Part shown: positions 31,534 to 32,686 of the stretch, piece after piece
Position numbering within the stretch: the stretch's first letter is position 1
Layout of the letters: each line of letters opens with the position of its first letter
Assembly: GCA_015493615.1 (NCBI GenBank)
Contig: WGCV01000064.1
Span: forward strand, 1 to 32,686
Direction: 5' to 3'
Length of the DNA stretch: 32,686 bases
Source of the DNA: Melioribacteraceae bacterium
Lineage (GTDB): Bacteria; Bacteroidota; Ignavibacteria; Ignavibacteriales; Melioribacteraceae
The notes under the pieces: model-generated
Database searches by the model: none
Told to the model about the DNA's origin: nothing
What the model saw: the letters and a program-made list of their open reading frames with translations, nothing else
Translations under genes and position numbers: made by a program

Positions 31534-32478
31534 TTATTTCATCAAAATCATCTTCTTTGTTGCGCTGAAATTTCCGGCGCGTAATGTGTAGAAGTAAACT
31601 CCGCTTGGTAATCCGCCGGAAACGGAGCTTGCGTTGAATTGAACCGAATATTTTCCCGGTGATTGTATTTTGTTTACAAGCGTGGCAATCTTGCGTCCGA
31701 GTGCGTCGTAAACATTCAATTGCACAGACAATTCAGAAGTCCGCCTAGGCGGAGCCATCGTCGCTTCGCTCCTCGCAATGACGTAGTTTATTGTAGTTGT
31801 CGGGTTGAACGGATTCGGATAGTTTTGCTCCAACTCAAATTTAGCCGGTTTAATGCCGTTTGGTTCATCTTCAACGCCAACCAATGTTCCGTATGTTACG
31901 CCGTTTATTATCGCACCGGTTAAAGAACATCCTTCACTTTGTTCCGGCCAAATTCCCGTAAGACCAATTTTATCAGTATATAGCAGTTCCTCACCAAATG
32001 TAAAAACCAATCTTGTAAATAAGGTATCATTATCTATTAAATACCACAATGTATCCAATACAGTATGCCCATTATATGTAGTACCATACGGGACTTCCAA
32101 ACTATCTACTAAAAATTCCTCATCGGTTATTCCATCGTTATCGTTATCGTAAATGTCCAATCCCCTTATAACTCCTTCATCGTCTGTACGATAATAATAA
32201 AAAAAATAAGGTTGTTCCATTTTAAAATATTGTAAGTTATTAACCAACGTATCTTTAATAATTCTGTGCTCAAAATATTCTAAAGTATCATTATCGTGAT
32301 CATAATAGTAATACTGCCACAAATCTCCTACGTGCAAAGGAAAAAAATCATGCTCTTCTTTTGAAAAATATCTTTCCTTAAAACTTTGAGATACTTCGTT
32401 GTTGTTAAGATAACGCCCCGCTCCCTGTGCAAAAATCATTACCGGCAACAATATCATAATAAATAACATTCGTTTCAT
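31534..32478 (-). CDS. Secreted protein with T9SS type A sorting domain
   Basis: Exported by signal peptide (1-18, LLPVMIFAQ) and then through the type IX secretion system. About 45-200 is an unnamed, Asp- and aromatic-rich domain (FFPLHVGDLWQYYYYDHDND, DIYDNDNDGITDEEF, which recalls a calcium-binding loop). From 218 the C-terminal signal begins (QNYPNPFNPTTTI), runs through LNVYDALGRKIATLVN, and ends GVYFYTLRAGNFSATKKMILMK. Between Tyr232 and Leu250 the signal is interrupted by VIARSEATMAPPRRTSE, which is translated repeat DNA. AAGGAG is seven bases before ATG. The function of the N-terminal domain is unknown. Confidence 0.88.
   Translation of the reverse strand: MKRMLFIMILLPVMIFAQGAGRYLNNNEVSQSFKERYFSKEEHDFFPLHVGDLWQYYYYDHDNDTLEYFEHRIIKDTLVNNLQYFKMEQPYFFYYYRTDDEGVIRGLDIYDNDNDGITDEEFLVDSLEVPYGTTYNGHTVLDTLWYLIDNDTLFTRLVFTFGEELLYTDKIGLTGIWPEQSEGCSLTGAIINGVTYGTLVGVEDEPNGIKPAKFELEQNYPNPFNPTTTINYVIARSEATMAPPRRTSELSVQLNVYDALGRKIATLVNKIQSPGKYSVQFNASSVSGGLPSGVYFYTLRAGNFSATKKMILMK
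31740..31783. repeat. GTCATTGCGAGGAGCGAAGC repeat inserted within a coding sequence
   Basis: On the minus strand the sequence GTCATTGCGAGGAGCGAAGC, then GACG, is followed by the perfect palindrome TCCGCCTAGGCGGA (31740-31753). This is the style of a common bacterial intergenic repeat, here kept in frame in the T9SS tail. Confidence 0.75.
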
Positions 32479-32544: not shown

Positions 32545-32686
32545 CTATTTAACCAAAATCATTTTTTTTGTAGATGTAAAATTGCCCGCGTTTAACGTGT
32601 AAAAATATATTCCGCTCGGCAATCCTCCGGCGACAGACGAGGCGTTGAAGTTAACGGTATAATATCCCGCTCGTTGAGTTTCATTT
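32545..32686 (-). CDS. Partial gene: T9SS C-terminal sorting domain
   Basis: Only the last 46 codons are inside the window. They read AGYYTVNFNASSVAGG, LPSGIYFYTLNAGNFTSTKKMILVK and a TAG stop, which is the tail of a type IX secretion signal and nearly identical to that of the next gene. The body of the protein lies beyond the right edge. The two genes follow each other on the minus strand, 66 bases apart. Confidence 0.9.
   Translation of the reverse strand, partial: NETQRAGYYTVNFNASSVAGGLPSGIYFYTLNAGNFTSTKKMILVK

Follow-up and report, generated by a model that had tools for sequence, protein, structure and literature searches.

Translated REP-like repeats in one loop of T9SS sorting domains, with probable turnover by copying between domains

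We find that a secreted protein encoded in the window (the whole 32,686-nucleotide stretch analysed, contig 64 in the draft genome, 3.15 Mb in size, of a Melioribacteraceae bacterium) contains a translated CGTC-type REP-like repeat in a loop of its T9SS sorting domain, and that the corresponding loop of other sorting domains, in this genome and in other genera, holds unrelated palindromes. The reading that we consider reasonably probable is that REP-like DNA is tolerated in a surface loop and that short-tract ectopic gene conversion among the sorting domains turns it over. Comparison of the sequences gives a history that looks like turnover by copying between these domains.

The gene is a 314-aa open reading frame on the minus strand (positions 31534–32478), recognized from the open frame and from profile matches as coding for a secreted protein with a C-terminal T9SS sorting domain. 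The domain is of type A (31546–31821, minus strand) and scores above the curated cut-offs of both profiles, with 34.8 bits for TIGR04183 (cut-off 23) and 32.5 bits for the Pfam profile Por_Secre_tail (PF18962; cut-off 27). The protein is probably made and secreted, and the domain would direct its export through the T9SS. The seventeen residues VIARSEATMAPPRRTSE are read in the frame of this ORF from 51 nt (31732–31782, minus strand) between TTTINY and LSVQLNVYDALGRK, as an earlier note on this DNA had stated. Read directly on the minus strand from 31782 down to 31732, the DNA is GTCATTGCGAGGAGCGAAGC-GACG-ATGGC-TCCGCCTAGGCGGA-CTTCTGAA. Here GTCATTGCGAGGAGCGAAGC is the CGTC-type half element (31763–31782, minus strand), also written GTCATTGCGAGGAGCGAAGCGACG, and TCCGCCTAGGCGGA is a nested palindrome that represents a second repeat family (31740–31753, no strand). 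The earlier note had the repeat, GACG and the palindrome in the right order, and left out the ATGGC that separates the last two. As delimited by a regular expression, the interval from INY to VYDALG takes 23 codons (31714–31782, minus strand), versus 11 in domains without an insert. Close to the end of the contig, a second sorting domain is represented by its C-terminal part (32554–32658, minus strand), which lies in an open frame of 46 aa.

Where does the segment lie in the folded protein? An AlphaFold model built with eight sequences (mean pLDDT 75.7) places strands at residues 25–32 (TTTINYVI) and 48–55 (LSVQLNVY) of the folded fragment, and the rest of the insert, modelled with lower confidence, between these first two beta-strands. 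The predicted turn (residues 33–47, about positions 31732–31776) agrees with the suggestion that the insert sits in a surface loop. A PDB search with the sorting domain gave one weak match only (E 0.096). Among ten homologues from outside the genus (L017–L026) none has the segment, and seven have an 11-residue loop, compared with 23 residues in the window protein. Within the genus, a homologue from the sister species G002 (L016; 75% identical DNA) has the window's CGTC repeat at the same codon. The window gene also has two paralogues in its own genome, L056 and L064 (74% and 67% protein identity), the former with a short loop in its sorting domain and the latter with a GTAG loop. DNA similarity between L056 and L016 ends near the start of the domain, which suggests whole-domain exchange.

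The 20-mer of the CGTC half element occurs at 41 places in the genome with up to three mismatches, and the same 20-mer read backwards occurs at none. Hence, the repeat in the window is not a chance resemblance. Four of the 41 places are inside open frames of 315–682 aa, and all four are the sorting-domain loop, on one strand and in one phase; at the remaining 37 the longest open frame across the first 40 nt is at most 108 aa. The repeat therefore has the high copy number and mostly intergenic location of the CGTC superfamily. These sequences, frames and counts, observed directly, confirm the earlier note's main claim, that an otherwise intergenic repeat lies in frame in a T9SS sorting domain, and the genome search that it recommended did uncover further intragenic copies. 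When diverged copies are included, eight sorting domains of this genome contain the CGTC repeat, in a common frame and orientation. In seven of them the repeat begins directly behind the first-strand tyrosine, and in L121 it begins four codons later, after SIPS; one of the eight domains holds the repeat as an inverted pair (contig C36, L065). A single recent move into the window gene is not supported, given these eight domains and the repeat shared with L016.

Other family traits of the CGTC repeat can be recognized. The base before GTC is C at 32 of the 41 places, T at seven and another base at two, and the tag bases are unpaired in the fold. An opposed partner motif lies nearby at 24 of the 41 places, versus 258 of 4000 random windows from the same stretches, and many intergenic copies are longer than the half element, which is followed by a partner in the opposite orientation. 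The half element itself folds into a 5-bp ATTGC/GCAAT outer stem with a long interior (z 0.25 relative to shuffles); a single half element lacks the stem of 8–9 bp and loop of 4–5 bp that are typical of the superfamily. The nested palindrome TCCGCCTAGGCGGA is found at 134 places with at most one mismatch, of which six are exact; every place is counted on each strand, and the reversed control gave no match. A variant, GC-TCCGCC..GGCGGA-CT, is seen in L035, an intergenic copy of the repeat. Two CGTC repeats in sorting domains of G002 (L180 and L183) likewise have a further short in-frame insertion, similar to the nested TCCGCC palindrome of the window.

The CGTC repeat is not the only occupant of this loop. 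The sequence GTAGAGACAAGGCATGCCTTGTCTCTAC, a perfect 28-bp palindrome that is translated as VETRHALSL and differs from the palindrome in the window's own loop, is present at 19 places in the genome with up to three mismatches, 18 of them in frame in the loop that holds the window's insert. Two more repeats are each confined to a single loop of this genome, GTAGGGACAGG..GATTGTCCCTAC (L066) and TCCGCCTTGGGCGGA (L123). Among relatives, whose loci were chosen by similarity to the insert-bearing window protein and are not a random sample, the loop contains palindromes of the GTAGAGAC type with differing cores (G005, G030, G047 and G014, and two rows of L181 in G002), of the CCTCCCCTTTGGCAAAGGGGAGG type (G021, G023 and G042), CCCTCCCCTTACCAAGGGGAGGG (G028 and G033) and the CGTC type (G048); many long loops of relatives have no palindrome. 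The insertion is accordingly not a lone one, and further copies and genera have unrelated palindromes at this position.

Palindromes are concentrated in long loops. Of the long loops, 17 of 40 in the window's genome and 26 of 73 in relatives have a perfect stem of at least 8 bp, versus none of the 42 short loops that make up the rest of the genome's 82 sorting domains. In base-shuffled loops such stems arise in 26 of 4000 (own genome) and 51 of 7300 cases (relatives). Control stretches of the same length contain them in 0/40 and 0/73 cases when taken 18 nt downstream, and in 2/40 and 4/73 when taken 60 nt downstream. Some of the latter matches may be due to GTAG-type palindromes in a second loop of the domain, which are in frame just before SG[VI]Y in L199, L200, L201 and L032 and were found in G005 and G048.

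We compared four-fold degenerate positions among 20 domains of the window's genome that were chosen by a loop length of 16 residues alone, decayed copies included. The GTAG palindrome differs at 12/785 of these comparisons (1.5%). By comparison, divergence is 319/756 over the eight codons to the left of the loop, 221/350 over the four that precede the palindrome and 953/2276 downstream, so that beside the palindrome it is 42–63%. Second positions downstream differ at only 268/4560 comparisons, which, set against the four-fold value for the same region, indicates that the protein after the insert is under purifying selection. For nine CGTC loops of G002, picked for a VIAR start and a length of 19 residues, a choice that favours alike repeats, four-fold divergence is 27/197 in the repeat versus 64/116 to the left and 158/487 to the right. 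Five similarly picked CGTC loops of the window's genome give a weaker trend (12/34 in the repeat versus 18/33 and 66/108).

Matching genes in related species can hold different repeats. In five colinear pairs of sorting-domain genes, 79–92% identical and with orthology assigned by best match and gene order, the gene in the window's genome has a GTAG palindrome (two on contig C57, three on C31) and that in the sister species G004 has a CGTC repeat; for one of these genes G002 has a third palindrome. In another pair (L069/L192) the GTAG palindrome of one species is matched by a decayed form in the other. Such differences are directly visible in the alignments, and five gene pairs with different repeats mean that a single insertion is not sufficient as the full history. 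We profiled one segment, C57/L190, which is 91.6% identical over 2471 aligned bases and in which most 30-nt windows have 26–30 matches. Around its two repeats, matching falls to 14–25 per 30 over about 180 bp and to 15–26 over about 90 bp; the low values extend to windows flanking the repeats, and in windows at the repeats the repeat is itself part of the count. Other low windows occur at 1830–1889 (19/30 and 23/30), 2070 (24/30) and 870 (25/30), and there is a gapped stretch at 750–809.

How might these patterns have arisen? We propose that the segment represents an intergenic REP-like repeat of the CGTC type, translated together with the TCCGCC palindrome nested within it, and that the turn between the first two beta-strands would tolerate extra residues, so that repeats in the loop would survive wherever the frame is kept. 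The many sorting-domain paralogues would then swap the loop by short-tract ectopic recombination, the copying process probably being gene conversion with tracts of roughly 100 bp around the repeat. Conversion of this kind would keep copies of a repeat alike while their flanks diverge, and would let the same gene hold different repeats in sister species. For the original entry of the GTAG palindromes, a RAYT transposase would be the likeliest agent. Several observations weigh against this reading. The GTAG palindrome has a sharp left edge, in an analysis that covered sorting domains parsed and matched from the model's start (five unparsed domains were left out), and a long conversion tract would not by itself be expected to leave such an edge. 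The type of repeat is in part associated with the flanks, homogeneity in the five CGTC loops of the window's genome is weak, and the sole segment profiled has low windows away from its repeats; the donor in each conversion is also assumed. The sharp left edge leaves room for a transposase-driven copy, and gene conversion is nonetheless the best reading.

A bolder version of events, which we regard as possible but doubtful, makes the beta1–beta2 turn a recurrent landing site. Coding palindromes would act as a short-range drive between sorting domains, provoking breaks or nicks and being copied with a little flank, and RAYT genes with in-frame GTAG palindromes would supply the nick. If so, dozens of secreted proteins are being edited at one loop in a lineage-specific manner.

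Somewhat less likely is that RAYT transposition, rather than conversion, has repeatedly and site-specifically delivered GTAG palindromes into each domain. The 19th GTAG copy, the only one outside sorting domains in this genome at up to three mismatches, is in frame in a 202-aa RAYT-like ORF (L146:755–1363, minus strand, on contig C22 of the window's genome, G000; palindrome at C22:8932). This ORF matches the REP-associated tyrosine transposase family NF047646 with 64.7 bits (E 7.9e-18; curated cut-off 80) and Pfam Y1_Tnp with 15.1 bits (cut-off 23), and it is absent from the results of the PF01797 genome search; falling below the cut-offs of both RAYT models counts against its role. Among 30 RAYT matches of relatives (L149–L178), eight have, within the match, a perfect inverted repeat that is GTAG-tagged and whose arms measure at least 14 bp, and the repeat is read in frame only in L149, L155, L157 and L160. 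The RAYT palindrome matches the sorting-domain palindrome exactly in the window's genome, shares only the outer bases with it in G005, and does not match it in G006 and G014, for each of which few domains were examined. RAYT genes flanked by CGTC repeats were also considered and rejected, as none of the five PF01797 loci (L010–L014) has a CGTC match at up to three mismatches.

The sharp left edge and the presence of the same palindrome across many phyla also favour repeated transposition. A scan of the genome collection for GTAGAGACNNGGCATGCCNNGTCTCTAC returned at least 116 stretches. Sorted by frame and motif, the 83 copies in the 80 stretches listed comprise 56 that are short or intergenic, 17 in open frames of 150 aa or more (by open-frame length alone), seven in frame in RAYT-like ORFs, and three in sorting domains, namely the Ignavibacteriales L291 and L310 and the Neomarinimicrobiota L316; the other 36 stretches were scanned for sorting domains only. 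In L269, L293 and L253 the palindrome lies in open frames that we take to resemble TsaD, a KdtA-like transferase and a histidine kinase, respectively. A sorting domain of another type (L334:2967–3224, minus strand) has VETRHATSLQ in a different loop, plus a further repeat-like stretch. Repeated transposition leaves the CGTC and CCTCCCC repeats and the changed flanks of C57/L190 unexplained, and no common target sequence is evident by eye to the left of the insertion.

About as improbable is that each repeat was inserted once in an ancestor and then spread by ordinary gene duplication. The single frame of all eight CGTC copies, the single start codon of seven and the presence of the window's repeat in L016 fit such a history. 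The label counts point the same way: on a tree of the flanks with 49 rows, those with a short right part being left out, repeat types need 13 changes, compared with a shuffled mean of 16.6, and 50 of 1000 shuffles (about 5%) are as low; for the 27 rows of the window's genome the count is five changes (mean 7.0; 55 of 1000 as low). Resolution of the tree is poor: 42 of its 69 inner branches are open. Because 13 changes compare with a mean of 16.6, repeat type appears to be only loosely tied to the flanks and partly to go with them. The five colinear pairs with different repeats strain an account by duplication, as does the four-fold divergence of 12/785 in the palindrome versus 953/2276 downstream in the same genes. 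Turnover by gene conversion is the reading under which we would expect both.

It is quite unlikely that selection for a DNA or RNA hairpin near the 3ʹ end of the gene, through mRNA stability or termination, has kept the repeats identical. The GTAG palindrome does fold strongly (z -6.46), and the copy in L139 has two compensating changes. However, the CGTC half folds no better than its shuffles, which disfavours the hairpin as sole cause, about half of the sorting domains are short-looped and have no 8-bp stem, and some GTAG copies are decayed (L094 and L125). An assembly artefact or pseudogene is hardly credible: the genomes used are largely drafts or MAGs, but open frames run to the conserved end in many genes of several genera, the protein downstream is under purifying selection, and named Ignavibacteriales and Neomarinimicrobiota records also have inserts.

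What is the significance of these repeats? Intragenic REPs have so far been catalogued as scattered curiosities; here, several unrelated families gather in a single domain loop across many genes and genera. They offer replicated natural experiments on the spread of REPs, the continuing action of RAYTs and the tolerance of translated mobile DNA. They also call for caution, since strings such as VIARSEA and VETRHALS, which look conserved in sorting domains, are DNA repeats, not protein motifs.

Intragenic REPs as such are known already, from CGTC and GTAG families and from Rickettsia palindromic elements (RPEs). In the available part of their paper, Di Nocera et al. (2013, PMC3733652) describe in-frame REPs in many genes, suggest that the insertions may be neutral in linkers or loops, and identify RPE-6 with CGTC-1 and RPE-4 with CGTC-4 repeats. 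The repeats described here resemble their CGTC and GTAG superfamilies in the C/T-GTC tag, the opposed partner, the intragenic copies and perhaps the link between GTAG repeats and RAYTs; they differ in that the superfamily table gives CGTC repeats a stem of 8–9 bp and a loop of 4–5 bp, and the half element combines an outer stem of 5 bp with a long interior. Intragenic sites in that work mostly differ from one another, with one shared site in recB, and the same part of the paper makes no mention of T9SS domains. Nor do the available parts of the RepRanger paper (PMC12306157) mention T9SS or Ignavibacteria, and our literature searches, as far as the indexed text extends, found no paper on palindromes in T9SS sorting domains. 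The RAYT-like ORF on C22 is similar to the NF047646 family and differs from it in its sub-cut-off score and in the GTAG palindrome within its own frame. Coding palindromes in Nematomorpha mitochondria are likewise perfect inverted repeats; in the portion of that report at hand (PMC6649704), both arms encode conserved protein, whereas the repeat here encodes an extra loop. RPEs, to which we liken the present repeats by description, are also short palindromic repeats read in frame. According to the accounts available, they are spread over many unrelated Rickettsia genes; here, in contrast, different repeats have recurrently entered one loop of one domain family. Relative to the literature as far as it was accessible to our searches, what is new is an export-domain loop that recurrently hosts unrelated palindromes, which are swapped between matching genes.
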